DNA of 28,164 nucleotides from a virus, in IMG/VR virus record IMGVR_UViG_3300027733_000168, positions 1 to 28,164 of that record, one strand, 5' to 3'. Position numbers and translations under genes: made by a program. This document shows positions 3,419-20,155 of the stretch, one piece after another (the first letter of the stretch is position 1; each line of letters starts with the position of its first letter). Below the pieces are notes generated by a model. It searched no databases, was not told where the DNA came from, and was given only the letters and a program-made list of their open reading frames with translations.

Positions 3419-3565
3419 TTGAACCGCGTGGTCATAAACCTGCCGCAGCAGCAGGTCTCATGGATTGACGAAAAGGTGACCGGCATCGAAAACCGCACCA
3501 CCTTCCTCCGCAGACTGATTCAGCAGGCCATGGAATCCGATAAGCGCCAGCAAGATCGTGCATGA
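3419..3565 (+). CDS. Ribbon-helix-helix DNA-binding protein (TTG start)
   Basis: A 48-residue protein reading RVVINLPQQQVSWIDEKV then IENRTTFLRRLIQQAME, the usual form of an Arc/CopG-type ribbon-helix-helix: a short beta strand, a helix, the turn with Asn-Arg-Thr, and a second helix. No ATG precedes the fold; TTG 3419 gives a natural N-terminus, with GTG 3428 as an alternative. No clear Shine-Dalgarno is seen. The stop overlaps the primase start as ATGA, so the two are probably translated together. These proteins bind DNA as dimers and often repress their own operon, and the palindrome at 3362-3371 is a candidate operator. Confidence 0.65.
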   Translation: MNRVVINLPQQQVSWIDEKVTGIENRTTFLRRLIQQAMESDKRQQDRA

Positions 3566-6063
3566 GCGTTTCGCCCGCCGATGGCCGTTGGCCAGATCTC
3601 CTCGCGGCACTCGCAGGTCTTTCATCTTCTCAGCTATCCCCAAAGCACGGCCCTTGCCCTCTTTGTGGTGGCACCGACCGCTATCGATTTGATGATCTAA
3701 ACGGCACCGGCTCCTGGTTTTGCAATCAATGCGGCGGCAAGGATCAACGCGGTGGCGGCGGTTCCGGCATGGACCTACTCATGCGTATCAAAGGCTGGAG
3801 TTATCCAGAAGCGGCCCGTGCAACTGACGATTTTCTTGGTATTGCAAGAACACCGCAAGCCAGCCTGCGCTTAGCACCACCACTAAGTCGAGCCGATTCT
3901 TATTGGCAATACAGCGATACCTATTACGTTTGCCGTTTTCCTGGTAAAAAGTTCAGGCCACTTTCATGGGATGGCATTAATTGGATATGGAAAGCACCGC
4001 CAGCGCCTAGGCCGCTCCTATATCTTGAACGTCTAAAAGCACGGCCAAATGCTGTCGTGCTGGTAGTCGAAGGCGAAAAAACAGCAGACGCTGCCCAGCG
4101 CTTGCTTCCTGCATATGTCGTCACAACCTGGCCCAATGGCTCCAAGGCCATATCAAAGGCCGATTGGAAGCCACTCGCCAATAGGGACGTCGTTCTATGG
4201 CCCGATAACGACGATGCCGGCAACGCAGCAATGGCTGCTATCGCCTTAATCCTTCAGGCCTTACCAGCGGCATCAATCAAACTGGCCTCTAATCCGCCAG
4301 ATGCGCCAACCGCTTGGGATATTGCTGACGCATCCTGGTCCCTAGAAGAGGCTGTTATTTACATAGAAGCCAATACCTCGGAGGTATTGGCGCCAACGTC
4401 ATCACAGCCACCACCGCCAGGCACCCCTCCATCAGCAGCGTCCGCTCAGCCACCACCACCGCCACCACCCTTTGAGCTGTTGGGTTTTAGCCATGGCACC
4501 TACTACTACCAGCCGCACTCAACCGCACAGGTGACGCCATTGCTGCGTTCAGCTCATACCGGCACCAACCTCACCGCCCTTGCGCCACTCTCGTATTGGC
4601 AACAGGTATACGCATCACGCCGTTCGGTTGATTGGGCCGCAGCTGCATCAGATCTATTTGAAAAGCAAGCACGTATTGGCATGTACTCCCCCGAGCGCTT
4701 GCGTGGTCGTGGCGCATGGTGGGATAAAAACCGTTGCATCATCCACCTCGGTAATCGCATCCTGGTGGACAACACCAAACATGCGCTTCATGGCTTTGGC
4801 TCCGATTACCACTATCAACGCGGAGAGGCACTCCATGGTTTTGATGCCATCACACCTCTAACCGCAGAGGAAGGCCTTGCCATCCTTAACGTTGCCACCA
4901 TGTTTCTATGGGAGCAGGAGCCATCGGCTCAGTTGCTCGCTGGCTGGATTGCCTTAGCTCCAATCTCAGGTGCGCTCAAATGGCGCCCTCACGTATGGCT
5001 CACCGCACCAGCAGGCGCTGGTAAATCCACAATCCTTGATCGCTTTGTTGGGCCATTGCTCGCTGATTTCGCCCAGGTATTCGTCGGTAACTCAACAGAA
5101 GCCGGCATCCGCCAGCAGCTGCGCTCAGATGCATTGCCCGTAGTGCTAGACGAGGCCGAATCAAACGAAAAATCAGACCAAGCCCGCATCCAATCAATCC
5201 TGTCCCTTGCTCGCGTCTCATCATCAGAATCATCTGCCTCCATTATCAAAGGCTCTAGCAGCGGTGAAACCGCACGCTTTAGGGCGCGGTCCATGTTTAT
5301 GTTTTCGTCGATTTCTACATCTCTAAAGCAAGGCGCAGACAGGCGCAGGTTTGCTCAGCTAACTCTCCAAACCGCTGCAGCAAAGGCCCTGCCTGATGCC
5401 CAAAGCCAATGGGAAGAACTAGATAAATCGCTAGACCGTTTGATCACGCCCGAAATTGGCAGGCGTTTGATCGCAAGAACTGTCTCAATGATCCCAATAA
5501 TTCGCCAAACAATCGCATTATTCACCGCCGTTGCAGCCAGAAAATTTGATTCCCAAGCGTTGGGCGATCAATATGGCACCCTCATGGCCGGTGCCTGGTC
5601 CCTGCAGTCCGATTCTGTCCCAACCGACGCGGTGGCCCATGATCTTATAGGCCTTATTGATTGGTCCGAATACCAGCAGGCCACTGAGATCCCAGATGAG
5701 CGCCGCTGCCTTGACACAATCCTTCAGCAGCCCATCAGGGTTGAAACCGATGACCGCGCCATCACACGAACACTGCTGGAATTAATCCAAATGGTTCAAA
5801 CGCCTAGCGCCAAACCGTTTGAACCGATCAGCACGGAAATTGCTGCGTCACACCTAGGCCGCCATGGCTTGCAGGTAAAAGATGGCCTGCTTTTGGTCGC
5901 CAATAACTCAAAGGCACTAACCAAGTTATTAGCTGAAACCGCTTGGCAACACAGCTATCCCACAGTTCTTAGGCGCTTGAACGGTGCGACGGCTGCAGGC
6001 TCGCATTACTTCCGCGGGGTTGGTCAGCACCGGGCGATTGCAGTGCCACTTCAAACGCTTTGA
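3562..6063 (+). CDS. P4-alpha-like primase-helicase
   Basis: An 833-residue multidomain replication protein. In order: a P4-type zinc-binding domain (CPLC at 32-35, CNQC at 54-57), a TOPRIM primase core (VVLVVEGEKT at 165-174, DNDD at 215-218), a proline-rich linker (about 283-303), and an SF3/DnaB-like helicase domain with Walker A APAGAGKST (482-490), Walker B VVLDEAE (527-533) and arginines near 594-596 that could form the arginine finger. In satellite phage P4 the alpha protein joins primase, helicase and origin-binding activities. This protein is of similar size and a dense iteron array starts at its last codons (6051-6365). I infer that its C-terminal about 200 residues, with no motif that I recognise, bind those iterons. 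It begins inside the stop codon of the 3419 gene (ATGA). Two further iteron-like words lie in its coding sequence at 5796-5822. Confidence 0.88.
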   Translation: MSVSPADGRWPDLLAALAGLSSSQLSPKHGPCPLCGGTDRYRFDDLNGTGSWFCNQCGGKDQRGGGGSGMDLLMRIKGWSYPEAARATDDFLGIARTPQASLRLAPPLSRADSYWQYSDTYYVCRFPGKKFRPLSWDGINWIWKAPPAPRPLLYLERLKARPNAVVLVVEGEKTADAAQRLLPAYVVTTWPNGSKAISKADWKPLANRDVVLWPDNDDAGNAAMAAIALILQALPAASIKLASNPPDAPTAWDIADASWSLEEAVIYIEANTSEVLAPTSSQPPPPGTPPSAASAQPPPPPPPFELLGFSHGTYYYQPHSTAQVTPLLRSAHTGTNLTALAPLSYWQQVYASRRSVDWAAAASDLFEKQARIGMYSPERLRGRGAWWDKNRCIIHLGNRILVDNTKHALHGFGSDYHYQRGEALHGFDAITPLTAEEGLAILNVATMFLWEQEPSAQLLAGWIALAPISGALKWRPHVWLTAPAGAGKSTILDRFVGPLLADFAQVFVGNSTEAGIRQQLRSDALPVVLDEAESNEKSDQARIQSILSLARVSSSESSASIIKGSSSGETARFRARSMFMFSSISTSLKQGADRRRFAQLTLQTAAAKALPDAQSQWEELDKSLDRLITPEIGRRLIARTVSMIPIIRQTIALFTAVAARKFDSQALGDQYGTLMAGAWSLQSDSVPTDAVAHDLIGLIDWSEYQQATEIPDERRCLDTILQQPIRVETDDRAITRTLLELIQMVQTPSAKPFEPISTEIAASHLGRHGLQVKDGLLLVANNSKALTKLLAETAWQHSYPTVLRRLNGATAAGSHYFRGVGQHRAIAVPLQTL

Positions 6064-6365
6064 CAGCTGTCAAACGCCTTCAAACGCCTACCGTTTGACA
6101 GGATCGACTGGTATGACTGGCGTTTGGGGAAATCAAACGCCAAACGCCTGTGGAGACAGATATATATAGAAAAACAAATGCATATGTCTCTACGTCTAAG
6201 TCTAGTCTTAGTCTAAGAATAAGACACATAAAAACTTGTTTCTATATATATATATCTTTAAAAGCGTTTGAAACGTTTGAAAGCGCGAAATCGCTTGCCA
6301 TGGCTGGGATCTCTGTCAAACGCTTAAGCGTTTGAAGGCGTTTGAAAATTGGCAAAAGCGTTTGA
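6051..6365. other. ori: Candidate replication origin: iterons around an AT-rich core
   Basis: At least nine exact copies of TCAAACGC or its complement GCGTTTGA, plus four variants, lie in 315 bp. Exact copies start at 6051, 6070, 6080, 6133, 6264, 6316, 6328, 6338 and 6358; variants at 6091, 6120, 6140 and 6273. Copies left of the AT-rich core mostly read TCAAACGC and those right of it mostly GCGTTTGA, so the array is roughly symmetric around 6158-6257. Two are joined in perfect palindromes: TTTGACAGCTGTCAAA (6059-6074) and TCAAACGCTTAAGCGTTTGA (6316-6335). Apart from the last codons of the primase-helicase gene, the region holds no credible ORF. The layout suits iteron-controlled initiation by the adjacent primase-helicase. 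The alternative is an operator array controlling the genes from 6408. Confidence 0.65.
6158..6257. repeat. AT-rich imperfect palindrome, probable unwinding element
   Basis: The left arm 6158-6177 (starting AGATATATATAG) and right arm 6236-6257 (ending CTATATATATATATCT) are inverted repeats with small length differences. They enclose GTCTAAG-rich sequence with its own short dyad (CTAAG-TCTAGT-CTTAG). The low melting stability and the central position between the two iteron groups suggest a DNA unwinding element or a cruciform. Confidence 0.55.
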
Positions 6366-6367
6366 TC

Positions 6368-6390
6368 GTGGTCCCGACCGTGGACAAGTA
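6368..6390 (-). promoter_or_regulatory. Operator-like dyad element, copy 2 (inverted)
   Basis: The reverse complement of this stretch equals the element at 1583-1605 at 21 of 23 positions, with central dyad GGTC-GG-GACC. It lies 3 bp after the last iteron and 18 bp before the ATG at 6408. A further hairpin, GTTTGC-TTGT-GCAAAC (6392-6407), fills the gap to that ATG. This suggests that the small-gene operon and the excisionase-like gene share a regulator. Confidence 0.45.
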
Positions 6391-6407
6391 CGTTTGCTTG
6401 TGCAAAC

Positions 6408-6518
6408 ATGGCGCAGACCTACACCGGCGCCTGCCTTTTGGTTCTCGCCGCAGACGGCTACCCATGGGATGGCCGCAAGGTCCGGCAGGTCTTTTACCCT
6501 TCACGGTTCAAACCATGA
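6408..6518 (+). CDS. Small hypothetical protein, first of a coupled gene chain
   Basis: A 36-residue ORF (begins MAQTYTGACLLVLAADG, ends SRFKP) whose stop codon overlaps the next ATG as ATGA at 6515. The same 4-base overlap recurs at every following junction up to 7100, which supports it as a real gene despite its size. I recognise no family. A hairpin at 6392-6407 directly precedes the ATG, and no Shine-Dalgarno is evident. Longer ORFs in the other two frames over 6332-6515 look like chance. Confidence 0.4.
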   Translation: MAQTYTGACLLVLAADGYPWDGRKVRQVFYPSRFKP

Positions 6519-6709
6519 ACTCACTCGACCGCAGACGGGCTCAAAGGCGCTCTAGGCGGCAGCAGGCACCAATTCTCTACATCGAGTATTGGATCGGCTT
6601 CCTGGTCGGCCTAGGTGCCGCCTGGGCAGTTTCTGGGCCCACGCTCACTGCTGCTTATTTCCAAATCCAGCACGACATCGCCCGATCTGTATTGGTGGCG
6701 GAGCAATGA
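6515..6709 (+). CDS. Small membrane protein, one predicted TM segment
   Basis: A 64-residue protein with a strongly basic N-terminus (eight Arg within residues 6-15), then one hydrophobic stretch (about IEYWIGFLVGLGAAWAVSG, residues 23-41) and a polar tail. This predicts a single-span membrane protein with the basic end in the cytoplasm. The frame is open upstream to 6332, but ATG 6515 overlaps the stop of the previous gene (ATGA) and is preferred. The stop again overlaps the next start. One-span small phage proteins can be holins, spanins or inhibitors; nothing here decides between these. Confidence 0.5.
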   Translation: MNSLDRRRAQRRSRRQQAPILYIEYWIGFLVGLGAAWAVSGPTLTAAYFQIQHDIARSVLVAEQ

Positions 6710-6888
6710 CCACCACCCCACGTGAGCGCCTAGCCGTCACCATCCACACTGCCGCCAAAACGGTTGCATGGCACCCAACACTGGAACGCCAAATCGCGGC
6801 GCGGTTAGAGCAATTACCTGTCAATTCCGAGGCTGCAATCCAGCTGCGCGGTTTATTTGCTGAAATGACCCACTGGAAAAACCAATGA
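6706..6888 (+). CDS. Small hypothetical helical protein
   Basis: A 60-residue protein (MTTTPRERLAV... ending THWKNQ) rich in Ala, Leu and Arg and likely all-helical. No family recognised. ATG 6706 overlaps the previous stop and its own stop overlaps the next start at 6885, both as ATGA. The frame is open from 6589, but the coupled start is preferred. Confidence 0.5.
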   Translation: MTTTPRERLAVTIHTAAKTVAWHPTLERQIAARLEQLPVNSEAAIQLRGLFAEMTHWKNQ

Positions 6889-11335: not shown

Positions 11336-12109
11336 ATGCAATCCAACTGCTCTCACATTGTCACAGCTGAAACCGTGGCGATCCTGCCGGCCCCGATCCT
11401 ATGGGCCGCCGCTCAGTTCGCCAGCGCTGACCTATCACGGCCAGCAATAAACAAAATTCAAATAGAACGCTGCCAGTGGAATGTAAAAATCCGGTCCGTT
11501 GACGGTCACCGCGCATTCAGAGCAACGCTTGACACCTGCGGATCCGGGGATGATATGGCCTACTGGCCAGTGCCTGATCAGCACCTCCTACTACCAGCTG
11601 CCGACTGGATAAAGCCTGGCAAACTACTGACCGCAGACTGGGCCCACCTGAAACTTGACGGAACAGCCCACATAATCAACCACGCCGGCGCCACCGTTGA
11701 GATCCGCCAATGGTCCAACGCTAACAACCTAGAACAATTTCCCAACGTCGACCAGGTATGGCCTACAGAATTTGAATGTGACCCTATGGCGCCAATCAAT
11801 CTAAACGCCAACTACCTAGAAAGTATCGCCAAAGTGGCGGCCAAGCTGGGAGAAAAAGCAAACCCACAGATAGAGGTAGAAACCGGAAACGAAGGCACGC
11901 CGCTTCAATTTTCCAGCCACTATCGCGACACGAAACAACGCCTTGAATACCTCCTCATGCCTGCACAGGCACGCCATGCAAGCGATCGCCTGGCCGAACG
12001 CATAGGACGCCAACGCGAAAAAGAACGCGATGCCCGCGAACTGGCAGCATTCAGAGCCCGCGAGCTGGCCCAACTTCCAACCATTAGCCGGGAGCTGACT
12101 CATGTTTGA
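11336..12109 (+). CDS. DnaN-like sliding clamp, shortened
   Basis: A 257-residue protein that aligns by eye with bacterial beta clamp from domain 2 onward: LPAPILWAAAQFASADLSRP corresponds to the start of domain 2, RSVDGHRAF (53-61) to the hallmark TDGHRLA, FPNVDQVWP (135-143) to FPDYRRVLP, INLNANYLESIAKVAAKL (154-171) to the domain 3 helix, and YLLMPAQ (205-211) to the final VVMPMRL. Domain 1 (about 120 residues) is absent, domain 3 is shortened, and a charged 46-residue tail (RQREKERDARELAAFRAREL) follows. Beta clamps ring DNA and tether polymerase. Here the role might be host polymerase recruitment or interference, or a ring with different symmetry. No polymerase gene is in the window. Confidence 0.65.
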   Translation: MQSNCSHIVTAETVAILPAPILWAAAQFASADLSRPAINKIQIERCQWNVKIRSVDGHRAFRATLDTCGSGDDMAYWPVPDQHLLLPAADWIKPGKLLTADWAHLKLDGTAHIINHAGATVEIRQWSNANNLEQFPNVDQVWPTEFECDPMAPINLNANYLESIAKVAAKLGEKANPQIEVETGNEGTPLQFSSHYRDTKQRLEYLLMPAQARHASDRLAERIGRQREKERDARELAAFRARELAQLPTISRELTHV

Positions 12110-13263: not shown

Positions 13264-13389
13264 TAGGCCTATTTGGCCTAAATCTAAAAATCATCAAAAA
13301 GAGCGCAAAAACAGGCAATTTGAAAGTAATTGCCGCGTGACTGTCACTGTTGCAACTCAATTGCAACCGCTCACTAGGATGGTTGCAGC
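13264..13389 (+). promoter_or_regulatory. Inverted-repeat cluster upstream of the late operon
   Basis: In about 125 bp before the terminase genes lie TAGGCC-TATTT-GGCCTA (13264-13280), GGCAATT-TGAAAGT-AATTGCC (13314-13334, seven perfect pairs), GTTGCAAC (13349-13356), ATTGCAACC (13360-13368) and GGTTGCAGC (13381-13389). The repeated TTGCAAC word also occurs as GGTTGCAACC at 3362-3371 before the primase operon. I infer binding sites for a phage regulator of late transcription. I could not place a convincing -10/-35 pair. Confidence 0.45.
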
Positions 13390-16534: not shown

Positions 16535-18084
16535 TGGGATTGCGTACATCTGCGATGAATGCATTTATGCGCCTATGGAGTGCAGGTCCAGGGCCACGGG
16601 GGCGCCGGTTATTTGAGGCTGCTAGGTTTAGCAGGCTTGATACAGATTTCTGGGGTGGGTTTGGTTCGGCTGATTCCGAAATCAGAGAAAGTTTAAGGTT
16701 ATTACGCAATCGCTCTAGGAAATTATGCCGGGATAATCCTTACGCTAAGCAAGCAAAACGTACAATACAGACAAATGTAATTGGCCCGCGTGGGGTGCAA
16801 CTACGCGCAAGCGCAAAAAAGGCTGATGGCCTGCAGCTTGACGCTAGACGAAACAAGATACTTGAAGAAACTTTTTCATTGTGGTGCAGGGCTGATACAT
16901 GTGATGTAGCCGGAAGGCTGAGCTTCCATGGATTTGAGCAGATGATAGCTGGGGCACTGCCGGAATCAGGCGAAGGCGTCATTAGGTTGGTACGTCAACC
17001 ATTTGGCAATGGTAAAACACCATTGGCACTAGAAATAATTGAATCAGACCAATTGGATGAGATGTATTCTGGCATCAGCGATAGACCTGGCCATAGGTGG
17101 CGGCTTGGTGTTGAGCTAAACGAATGGAATAGGCCAACACGATATGCGATTTTAACAAGGCATCCTGGCGATAGCGAGCTTGGAGCCCAACAAAGCGAAG
17201 CTCAGCGTCACATTTTTTTGGATGCCAAGGATATTATTTTGATCTTTTTGCCTGATCGTGTCGGTCAAACAAGAGGTGTGCCTTGGTTTTCGACTGTAGC
17301 TCTGACGGCTAATGCACTAGCTGAATACGAAAAAGCGCATTGGACTAAAAAACGTGTGCAGGCCAGCAGCCTTGGCTGGATTCAAACGCCAGAAGGCGAG
17401 CTGTCGGGCGATGAGGTGGTTAATGATCAAAGATTGCTTAATACAGAGCCAGGCTCATGGAATTACCTAGGTCCAGGCGAGAATGCAATCCCGCCTGATT
17501 TTGGCGCTGATGACGGCCAGTATGACAATGTAGTGCGTAATTTATTGCGTAGATTTGCGGCTGGAATGGGGTGCAGCTATGAAACATTGAGCAGGGATTT
17601 TAGCCAATCAAATTATTCCAGCTCACGGCTATCTGTGCTAGAGGACCGCGACCATTGGCGGGTAATCCAAAGCATGATTATTCAGCAATTTCACCAAAGG
17701 GTATACGAGGAGTGGCTGGATGCAGCAATGATTTCTGGGGTGCTACCTATTGATACATTCAAGGATTACTGGGTACGGCCTGAGCGGTATACAAACCCAA
17801 GATGGCAGGCAAGAACATGGAGCTGGGTTGATCCAAGCAAAGAACTAGATGCGATAAAAACTGCGCGTGAGCTTTTGCTTGAAAGCCATGGCGAACAGAT
17901 CAGTGACTTTAGCGGTGAAGAATTTGAAGCTGTAATGGCGCAAATTGCTCATGAAAACGAAATAAAAGATAGTCTTGGCTTGCCCTTGGTAATTGACCAG
18001 AAGGCTAATCAGTCATCAATAGCATCAGGTGGAGGACCACAAACACCTGGCAATGACTCAACAAACACAAGCCAGCAAAGCTGA
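16534..18084 (+). CDS. Portal protein, lambda gpB family
   Basis: A 516-residue portal. Seen: SRKLCRDNPYAKQAKRTIQT followed by NVIGPRGVQL, which is the usual lambda-portal start, ALPESGEGVIRLV, EIIESDQLDEM, VPWFSTVALTANALAEYEKA and CSYETLSRDFSQSNYSSSR, all characteristic of this family. The dodecameric portal forms the DNA gate at the prohead vertex and binds terminase. ATG 16534 has GAGG eight bases upstream and overlaps the gpW-like stop; the frame is open slightly upstream to a GTG at 16525. The C-terminal end is Ser/Gly/Gln-rich and overlaps the next gene by about 30 bp. Confidence 0.92.
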   Translation: MGLRTSAMNAFMRLWSAGPGPRGRRLFEAARFSRLDTDFWGGFGSADSEIRESLRLLRNRSRKLCRDNPYAKQAKRTIQTNVIGPRGVQLRASAKKADGLQLDARRNKILEETFSLWCRADTCDVAGRLSFHGFEQMIAGALPESGEGVIRLVRQPFGNGKTPLALEIIESDQLDEMYSGISDRPGHRWRLGVELNEWNRPTRYAILTRHPGDSELGAQQSEAQRHIFLDAKDIILIFLPDRVGQTRGVPWFSTVALTANALAEYEKAHWTKKRVQASSLGWIQTPEGELSGDEVVNDQRLLNTEPGSWNYLGPGENAIPPDFGADDGQYDNVVRNLLRRFAAGMGCSYETLSRDFSQSNYSSSRLSVLEDRDHWRVIQSMIIQQFHQRVYEEWLDAAMISGVLPIDTFKDYWVRPERYTNPRWQARTWSWVDPSKELDAIKTARELLLESHGEQISDFSGEEFEAVMAQIAHENEIKDSLGLPLVIDQKANQSSIASGGGPQTPGNDSTNTSQQS

Positions 18085-20155
18085 ACCCAGCGATAACTCG
18101 GGTGTTCAAGCTGAGCGGATGAACGGATACATGCCGCAAAAACCGGCAGTGATGAAGGCGCCTGGCGAAAATGATGATGCGTCAGACATGATGGTTGAGC
18201 CTATGGACCCCAGCCTTGATGTAGCTGAGGACTTGGCCGAGGAAGAGGGAGAAGAAACAATGAAAGGCAATGGCCCAGAAGTAAATATCAATGTGGTCAT
18301 TAGCAGCAGCCGAGCTGCTGAGCTGCGGTCGATGAAACGTGCGGCATTTGACGCTAGGGCGGAAGCCAGTGGTGATCCTGAACTTTACAGGTTTAGCTTT
18401 TCAAGCGAGCAACCGGTTGAGCGGTGGTTTGGGACCGAAGTTCTTAGCCATGATCCATCGGCTCCAGATTTCAGCCGGCTAAACGGCAATGCAGCGCCTT
18501 ACCTATGGAACCATAACTCTGAAGTTGTACTGGGCAAGGTTGAGCGTGCATGGCAAGGGGCTGACGGCAGAGGGTATTGCGAGGTGCGCTGGAGCCCAAA
18601 TACAAAGGCAGCTGGCAGCGAAGAGGCAAAACGACGAACTGACATTGAAGCAGGAATTATTCCAAGCGTGTCGTTTATGTACTCAATAGACGATGTGGTT
18701 GAGGTCGATGGCGTGATGCTTGTACGCCGCTGGACTCCGCTGGAGATTAGCAGTGTTCCAATCCCAGCAGATATTTCCGTTGGCCAATCACGTTCTGCTG
18801 CTGAAACTCCAATAAATGCTCTCCTTAGCATTAGTAGTGACGATTCTGCTATCCGCGGATCAAACACTGTCTCTATCTCTGCGATGACTGAACACAACCA
18901 GAACCTGGATGATGTGCGATCCGCCGAACGGGAACGCATCACCACTATTTCAGCACTAGCCGATCATCATGGCGTAAAAGAACTTGGCCAAAAGCTGATT
19001 TCTGATGGCCGCTCAATTGAGCAAGCCCGTGAAGCTGTGTTGAATGCTATTGGCGCCAGGAAGGAAGAATTTACCGGTCTGTCCCATACGGCCTCTGGTG
19101 ATGAGGTTGGCCTTTCCGATAAGGAAATCCGCCAATTCAGCTTCATGCGCATTGCCCGTCACTTGGCTGATCCTGCCGACCGCGCTGCCCGCGAGGCCGC
19201 TGGTCTTGAGTTGGCCGCCTCACGTGCCGCCGAATCCAAGTATGGCCGCTCAGCCAAGGGTATTTTGATCCCCAATGAAGTGCTTACTCGTGATCAAAAT
19301 GTTGGCACTGGTAGCGCTGGTGGCTATGGCGTGTCCACGACGTTGCTGACCGGAAGCTTTATTGATCTGGTCCGTAACCGCTCTGCAATCCTGCCTTACG
19401 CCACTGTGCTGGGCGGACTGCAAGGCAACGTTGACATCCCTCGGAAAACAAGCGTTACGCAAGCTTATTGGCTTGGCGAATCGGTTGCCGCCACCGAAAC
19501 GCAAATGGCGCTTGGTCAAATCGCCATGACTCCCAAGAGCATCGGCGCTTATGTGGACATCACCCGCCGGTTGATGATCCAATCCAGCCTTGACGCTGAA
19601 AGCTTGATCCGTAGCGACCTCGCTACCTCAGTTGCGCTGGAAGCTGATCGCGTTGGTCTTTACGGTAGTGGTTCTGCTAGCCAACCCCTTGGCCTGAAGA
19701 ACATCACTGGCATTGGTTCTGTCACCTTGACCGGTGGCGTTACTAAAACTATCAATAGCACCAGCTACGACTTCGGCACCTACGCCCAGTACATCGACCT
19801 GGAAACCTCTGTTGCGGCTAACAACCTTGACATTGGCTCCCAGCGCTATCTGGTGTCTGCTTATGCCCGTGGTTCGCTCAAGCAACAACCTAAGATCGGG
19901 TCTACCTTCCCCGAGTTTGTATACGGCAGCGACAACACTATCAACGGCTATGAAGCTGTTGTTAGCAACCAGCTGATTGGTTCAAACACATTCTTCGGTT
20001 CATTTGAAAATGCTGTGTTTGGGTTCTGGAGCGGCCTTGATGTAACGGTGGATCCTTATTCACTGAGCACCAAGGGCAGCGTTCGGATCGTTGCATTCCA
20101 AGATCTTGACTTTGCTGTGCGCTATCCCGGTGCATTTGCCTTTGGCGCTAGCTGA
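18053..20155 (+). CDS. Fused prohead protease and HK97-fold major capsid protein
   Basis: A 700-residue protein. Residues about 85-250 form a prohead serine protease of the HK97 type: VERWFGTEVLSHD, catalytic His in LWNHNSE (H154), catalytic Ser in IIPSVSF (S205 or S207) and the closing LEISSVPIPADISV. Residues about 285-345 form a delta-like scaffold segment (charged helices). The rest is an HK97-fold capsid protein: GGYGVSTTLLTGSFIDLVRN, VDIPRKTSV, YWLGESVAATETQMALGQIA, and the C-terminal FQDLDFAVRYPGAFAF. In HK97 the protease and capsid are separate genes. A fused protein would cleave itself out after assembly. ATG 18053 is preferred over an upstream GTG. The N-terminal about 75 residues are acidic and disordered. 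Confidence 0.9.
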   Translation: MTQQTQASKAEPSDNSGVQAERMNGYMPQKPAVMKAPGENDDASDMMVEPMDPSLDVAEDLAEEEGEETMKGNGPEVNINVVISSSRAAELRSMKRAAFDARAEASGDPELYRFSFSSEQPVERWFGTEVLSHDPSAPDFSRLNGNAAPYLWNHNSEVVLGKVERAWQGADGRGYCEVRWSPNTKAAGSEEAKRRTDIEAGIIPSVSFMYSIDDVVEVDGVMLVRRWTPLEISSVPIPADISVGQSRSAAETPINALLSISSDDSAIRGSNTVSISAMTEHNQNLDDVRSAERERITTISALADHHGVKELGQKLISDGRSIEQAREAVLNAIGARKEEFTGLSHTASGDEVGLSDKEIRQFSFMRIARHLADPADRAAREAAGLELAASRAAESKYGRSAKGILIPNEVLTRDQNVGTGSAGGYGVSTTLLTGSFIDLVRNRSAILPYATVLGGLQGNVDIPRKTSVTQAYWLGESVAATETQMALGQIAMTPKSIGAYVDITRRLMIQSSLDAESLIRSDLATSVALEADRVGLYGSGSASQPLGLKNITGIGSVTLTGGVTKTINSTSYDFGTYAQYIDLETSVAANNLDIGSQRYLVSAYARGSLKQQPKIGSTFPEFVYGSDNTINGYEAVVSNQLIGSNTFFGSFENAVFGFWSGLDVTVDPYSLSTKGSVRIVAFQDLDFAVRYPGAFAFGAS

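Follow-up and report, generated by a model that had tools for sequence, protein, structure and literature searches.

What is the cluster of short repeats that starts inside the end of a phage primase-helicase gene, and does the product of that gene read it? The window (the whole stretch of DNA that we analyzed, a virus sequence of 28,164 bp) is a tailed cyanobacterial phage, with genes for a putative integrase, a SNF2-like helicase, the primase-helicase, a GpA terminase, a lambda-type portal and an HK97 capsid. In the capsid region, a 708-aa ORF (18029-20155) fuses a prohead-protease-like part to the HK97-type major capsid protein. An initial annotation had proposed that the primase-helicase and the adjoining repeats make up a self-contained replicon in which the initiator uses an iteron word of its own.

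The repeats are much more frequent and more densely clustered than in shuffled sequence. The octamer TCAAACGC is present 12 times in the window compared to 1.2 expected copies, a number that was reached in no shuffle. The nine exact copies and the four variants (6092, CGTTTGAC; 6121, CGTTTGGG; 6140, CCAAACGC; 6274, ACGTTTGA) that had been counted initially were all located at 6051-6365. This region contains 11 copies of the heptamer CGTTTGA; across 300 order-2 shuffles, no 330-bp stretch had more than two. As had also been described, the array starts just inside the 3' end of the primase gene, with the first word at 6051 and the stop codon at 6061-6063. Five additional CGTTTGA sites are inside the coding sequence, between 5161 and 5822 (5161 and 5796 on the minus strand, 5437, 5464 and 5816 on the plus strand). 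Only two of these, at 5796 and 5816, had been reported; both are there, and the count was too low. The window is unusual in this respect, as other loci have zero or one of their own words in the last 900 bp of the primase gene, compared to five here.

The words form two arms, mostly facing outward, on either side of an AT-rich core. In the left arm (6051-6146), four of the five exact copies of CGTTTGA point leftward (6051, 6070, 6080 and 6133, minus strand), the exception being that at 6092 (plus strand), and there are variants at 6121 (plus) and 6140 (minus). In the right arm (6265-6365), five of the six exact copies point rightward (6265, 6274, 6329, 6339 and 6359, plus strand), the exception is at 6316 (minus strand), and a further variant lies at 6391. 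The two perfect palindromes that had been noticed, of 16 and 20 bp, can be read from the sequence as TTTGACAGCTGTCAAA (6059-6074) and TCAAACGCTTAAGCGTTTGA (6316-6335). The core (6160-6261), a probable unwinding element, is 76% AT compared to 49% for the window. It had been described as an inverted repeat at the center of a near-mirror symmetry; the AT-rich core and the mostly outward arms bear this out, and the inverted repeat (repeats I1 and I2) is only imperfect, with arms of 45-49 nt that are 71-73% complementary. Folded as single-stranded DNA, the core has a z of -4.65, to which runs of TA contribute.

The protein encoded next to the array is predicted to be a primase joined to a helicase and a DNA-binding domain. 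The gene (3562-6063, plus strand) encodes 833 amino acids, a putative initiator with a zinc ribbon, a TOPRIM primase, an AAA+ helicase like those of Cch and SaPI Rep, and a C-terminal winged helix. It matches the Pfam family Zn_Ribbon_Prim (PF08273; 4e-14) and the PHROG for DNA primase (2.8e-130). The AlphaFold2 model has a mean pLDDT of 87.9 for the full protein and 94.3 for residues 712-833. In the predicted fold, residues 101-280 match the DnaG core (Z 14.6), the N-terminal half also matches the TOPRIM primase of T7 gp4 (Z 13.3), and both the zinc ribbon (Pfam) and the TOPRIM RNA-polymerase fold (predicted) that characterize DnaG- and T7 gp4-type primases are present. For residues 303-832, the best full-length helicase match is SCCmec Cch (5dgk; Z 13.7, rmsd 8.0 over 409 residues), and the helicase part also matches MCM, D5-like helicases and PriRep1 of SaPI5. 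The model thus points to a TOPRIM primase of the DnaG and T7 gp4 kind, fused to an AAA+ helicase resembling Cch and SaPI Rep. The A1 profile, compared with sequences of solved structures, matched no primase-helicase or initiator and had TOPRIM hits with E values of 0.03-0.04 at best, and the DUF927 profile of the Cch and SaPIbov1 Rep helicases had no Pfam match in the window protein.

The initial annotation had called the primase P4-alpha-like. It does have Zn_Ribbon_Prim, but hmmscan (E ≤ 0.01) found neither D5_N nor PF03288, the profile used for alpha (PMC8628076), and the predicted fold resembles DnaG/gp4 and Cch/SaPI Rep. We rejected membership in the P4 alpha family on the basis of these family scans.

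The C-terminal part of the protein (residues 724-833; 5731-6060, plus strand) is a putative DNA-binding domain, predicted to be a winged helix from the AlphaFold2 model of residues 712-833 and VIA-align. When the domain alone was compared by VIA-align, the top row, a tie, was the C-terminus of SaPIbov1 Rep (8tch, Z 4.6), followed by other winged-helix DNA-binding domains and PriRep1. Foldseek with the domain alone against the PDB gave no match at E ≤ 0.001. The last hairpin, the wing (residues 810-817 and 821-829; 5989-6048, plus strand, from predicted secondary structure), carries on its two strands residues 814, 816 and 822, the candidate specificity positions from the mutual information described below.

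Relatives of the primase-helicase have an array in the same place, each with its own word. A first scan of viral contigs yielded 80 relatives with 46-57% identity to the window primase. The TCAAACGC array was absent from all 80, and nearly all of them had another short word repeated immediately 3' of the primase gene. The search for the octamer beside related primases, proposed initially as a check, was therefore negative for the octamer itself and positive for an own-word array in the same place. Because the relatives lack the octamer but carry a word of their own, taking its absence as grounds to discard the replicon, as had been suggested, would have misled.

Further scans of viral contigs and bacterial genomes brought the total to 179 distinct full-length primases; the long matches in bacterial genomes were almost all in picocyanobacteria (Synechococcus, Cyanobium and Vulcanococcus). 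A word could be called at 150 of the 179 loci, and the array was weak (three copies) or not callable at approximately 40, some of which are cut by contig ends. The equivalent site is occupied by words of the form (C)G-T-N-N-N-R, of which there are at least 15. The words include CGTTACA, CGTAACA, CGTAAGA, CGTTAGA, CGTGAGA, CGTGAGG, CGTTAGG, CGTCACA, CGTCAGA, CGTTCCA, CGTCCCA, CGGGACA, CGCAACA, CGTTACG, CGTAATG, TGTTTGG and the CGTTTGA of the window. Among the 146 loci with at least four copies, the word was on both sides of an AT-rich center in 145, with a median of nine copies over approximately 256 bp and the center a median of 158 nt past the primase stop codon. Copies faced outward in 403 of 609 cases on the left and 494 of 628 on the right.

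The layout was also kept in distant homologues: Synechococcus phage S-H1 (CCTAACG/CCGAACG), Bdellovibrio phage phi1422 (11 copies of GGTAACA), an Atlantibacter plasmid (GGTAACA/GGTAATA) and 8-kb linear plasmids of Arsenophonus (13 copies of GGTAACA or 11 of ATTACAA). The same procedure finds GTGAACA arrays adjoining the P4-alpha-like genes of Enterobacterales, in agreement with the P4 iteron. A viral scan with L192 as the query found no relative.

Several of these loci have other features. On the linear plasmids of Arsenophonus nasoniae (L083 and L084, approximately 8 kb), with GGTAACA or GCATTACA arrays downstream, the helicase homologue is the only annotated gene that resembles a replication initiator, and one of the plasmids has a protelomerase gene. 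In S-H1, the stretch directly after the array (L082:8072-9121) codes for a complete DNA polymerase III beta clamp, and a window protein (11336-12109) labeled RusA-like by PHROGs has weak similarity to that clamp (E 0.002). The primase-helicase ORF of Cyanobium sp. Cruz-8D1 (L191:4001-7732) contains an insert like a LAGLIDADG homing endonuclease or intein (Pfam LAGLIDADG_3 and Hom_end, residues 750-823). Loci with a related primase zinc-ribbon region in Erwinia, Pantoea, Serratia, Lonsdalea and Pectobacterium (L208, L209, L213, L220, L226, L230 and L231) have word clusters of their own nearby (TCCCCCA/CCCCCAC, 4-8 copies). The words are GTACTAC/TACTACA at L219 and L227, GTCCAAC at L212 and GCCCTAC, in 10 copies, at L144.

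Repeats in this position might have a role in gene expression. The words separate the primase gene from the genes that follow it, with some inside the gene, as would be expected of an operator by which the primase-helicase could repress its own operon or the genes beyond, or control their timing, with the origin elsewhere. In addition, what covariation of the word with the protein (described below) reveals is recognition, not a role in replication. However, outward-facing arms around an AT-rich core, with a median of nine copies over approximately 256 bp, far exceed a usual operator, and arrays of similar shape 3' of pri-rep genes are the origins of PICIs (PMC6092414). In addition, a promoter and terminator scan found nothing, including no promoter-like site at 5900-6800, although cyanobacterial promoters may differ. 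We consider an operator with a distant origin unlikely; the operator and origin roles could coexist. GC skew, which had been suggested as a check, was uninformative: it did not turn at the array in S-H1, in phi1422 or in the window, where the minimum is at 13374.

The word is correlated with a single residue in the predicted wing. We read each word outward as G-p2-p3-p4-p5-p6 and calculated mutual information for each pairing of an alignment column with a word position. Column 816 versus p5 had the highest z of all columns (9.3; the next was 3.3), and the best three columns for the whole word were 816, 822 and 814. In a table of 172 loci, Arg816 was found with C at p5 in 101 of 101 cases, Trp816 with GG at p5-p6 in 24 of 24, and Tyr816 with GA in 21 of 21, among them the window (Tyr codon at 6007-6009, plus strand; word GTTTGA). 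His816 was found with GA in 19 of 24 cases, and the other five had CGTAATG; Ser and Lys occurred once each. For these counts, the register of two groups was changed: CCTAACA arrays were taken as (T)GTTAGG, on account of the CCTAACG copies that adjoin them, and L120 was taken as GTTAC. Both changes were made after the first tables.

Residue 814 may influence positions 2-3 of the word. Lys814 pairs with G at p2 (GGGACA, and GGAACA in L364). Ser814 changed together with G at p3 in three of six pairs on the tree, which is not significant, and the Ser814 of the window is found with T at p3. That exception and the His816 subclade with CGTAATG indicate that positions beyond the 816 and 814 rules contribute to the word.

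The rule for residue 816 held in loci that were not used to derive it. The rule was fixed in writing before new loci were fetched, and those with clear arrays, plus phi1422, were scored. Agreement was 11 of 11 for Arg, one of one for Tyr, four of four for Trp and five of six for the scored His loci. The new cases included Tyr with CGTATGA (L323) and Trp with CGTATGG (L329, from another clade); phi1422, a distant homologue, has Arg with GGTAACA.

The correlation could in principle reflect common descent, or exchange of neighboring DNA as a linked block, with no contact between residue 816 and the iteron. We used a tree built from the helicase region only, with 15 changes at p5 and 45 in the whole word. 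Arg816 and C at p5 changed jointly in nine of nine supported independent pairs (p 0.004), and Trp816 and GG in six of six (p 0.03). Of 562 testable columns, 816 alone reached 9:0:0, and the runner-up reached 4.6 of 12. The same mapping thus arose repeatedly and at one column, and the rule holds in a clade outside the discovery set (L329, L323) and in phi1422, all of which argues against common descent. A pairwise-distance (Mantel-like) test in 25-residue windows, superseded by the column-level and tree tests, peaked modestly (0.22) at residues 798-822.

In favor of linked exchange, the C-terminal domain and the array do appear to be swapped as a block, and neighboring positions hitchhike when that happens. 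Among close relatives (helicase divergence of 2-12%), the ratio of C-terminal to helicase divergence was 3.2 when the words differed and 1.3 when they were the same. Between L279 (CGTAACA) and L301 (CGTCAGA), DNA identity was 72-98% up to approximately -300 relative to the stop codon, 43-74% from -300 to +300, and 88-93% beyond. L111 and L115 have the same kind of upstream break, and in some near-identical phages the main difference is a cassette of approximately 600 bp comprising the C-terminal domain and the array. These breaks and divergence ratios indicate, at the level of sequence comparison, that the DNA-binding domain and the array move or change as one unit. Against linkage as the source of the correlation, codon 816 precedes the first 3' iteron by approximately 40 nt and so is outside the array. 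Taking this together with the tree, we think it highly improbable that the correlation arose by descent or linkage with no contact between residue 816 and the iteron. The covariation and the exchange of the domain together with the array instead suggest that the initiator recognizes the iterons through its C-terminal domain.

Partition sites, too, typically contain clusters of short repeats, and the array might be a centromere-like partition site, or a packaging or recombination site, that is beside the primase gene by chance. We give this almost no credence. The word tracks a wing residue of the primase itself, and array and primase are linked across picocyanobacterial and Bdellovibrio phages, the Atlantibacter plasmid and linear plasmids, in which the neighbors differ.

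Based on the layout, its conservation, the covariation and the cassette exchange, we conclude that the array is very probably the replication origin of the phage and that the abutting gene encodes its initiator, in a self-contained, SaPI/PICI-like design in which the C-terminal wing reads the iterons. The self-contained replicon that was proposed initially is thus favored both by the layout, found in 145 of 146 loci, and by the covariation of word and wing. The primase-helicase would bind the CGTTTGA words through its C-terminal winged helix, assemble on the two outward-facing arms, one assembly per side, open the AT-rich core, and load itself bidirectionally as the replicative helicase, with the TOPRIM domain priming. 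Wing residue 816 would set p5-p6: C at p5 for Arg, GA for Tyr or His, and GG for Trp. The DNA-binding domain and the array would coevolve and at times be transferred together, allowing related phages to gain new replication specificities.

We think that picocyanobacterial phages and their relatives probably share an exchangeable, fast-evolving origin-specificity cassette, made of the initiator winged helix and the iteron array, with a simple wing code by which iteron and protein can each be predicted from the other, and at least 15 specificities. The PICI-type layout was already known from satellites. The fast-switching, single-residue specificity code appears to be new: we found no such code in the open-licence literature on SaPI/PICI modules, and its novelty is provisional because the search was limited to open-licence papers. 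These loci are a large natural set of initiator/iteron pairs, and a readable code would make replication specificity predictable from sequence in uncultured phages.

The forces that change origin specificity can now be tested, among them incompatibility, satellite hijacking and origin-directed nucleases such as Odn. There was no support for incompatibility as the cause of word change, because elements that reside in the same genome often have a word in common. One assembly of Synechococcus sp. HJ21-Hayes has four primase copies with arrays (L158, L162, L171 and L189), three with GTTACA and one with GTTCCA. All three elements in Cruz-8D1 have GTTAGA and both in FGCU6 have GTCACA; those in Umea differ (GTTCCA and GTTTGG). 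Selection for new words by an Odn-like nuclease is a candidate model, by analogy with the Vibrio cholerae PLE, for which Odn, an origin-directed, RepA-mimicking nuclease of ICP1, has been proposed to select iteron change (PMC8263062).

Among known systems, P4 alpha resembles the window protein in combining primase, helicase and initiator in one protein, in having Zn_Ribbon_Prim, and in using short iterons. It differs in the PF03288 and D5_N matches that the window protein lacks and in the word, GTTTGA in the window and GTGAACA at P4-like loci. The iterons of the P4 alpha family are GGTGAACAG, which the window array, with its word CGTTTGA, does not match, and in P4 ori1 and crr are kilobases apart, unlike the compact arrangement here. 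The N15-type RepA of linear plasmid prophages is a primase-helicase initiator with its origin in or at its own gene; similarly, a homologue of the window family is on a protelomerase plasmid. In PLE, as here, initiator and iterons form a replication module whose parts diversify and are exchanged together (PMC8263062), but PLE RepA belongs to the RepA_N proteins and has neither helicase nor primase, and its iterons are semi-palindromes of approximately 30 bp.

Further close parallels are found in SCCmec and in satellites. SCCmec Cch is the best full-length structural match for the predicted helicase part (5dgk), and the isolated C-terminal domain of Cch2 binds repeats that follow its gene directly (PMC7581432), although Cch2 has three AAGTG iterons compared to approximately nine per locus here and has no fused primase. 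SaPI Rep recognizes iterons directly downstream of its own gene through its C-terminal domain, apparently as two hexamers (PMC7581432), and PICI origins, which directly follow the initiator helicase gene on its 3' side, have two sets of iterons around an AT-rich region (PMC6092414), the layout that is also found in the window. The pri-rep-ori modules of SaPIbov1, SaPI5 and EcCICFT073 thus share with the window the iteron/AT/iteron order 3' of the initiator, and may share the helicase and C-terminal folds predicted here. The primases differ, being of the AEP family in SaPIbov1 and SaPI5 (PMC7581432) and of the TOPRIM type, fused to the helicase, in the window. The elements differ as well: a PICI is a satellite without its own capsid, portal or terminase large subunit, and the window, with its GpA terminase, lambda-type portal and HK97 capsid, is a tailed phage and not a satellite. 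If the array is the origin, tailed phages gain an origin layout that was reported as exclusive to PICI satellites, and the set described here would extend this layout beyond satellites, to linear plasmids and to the tailed phages that infect cyanobacteria and Bdellovibrio.
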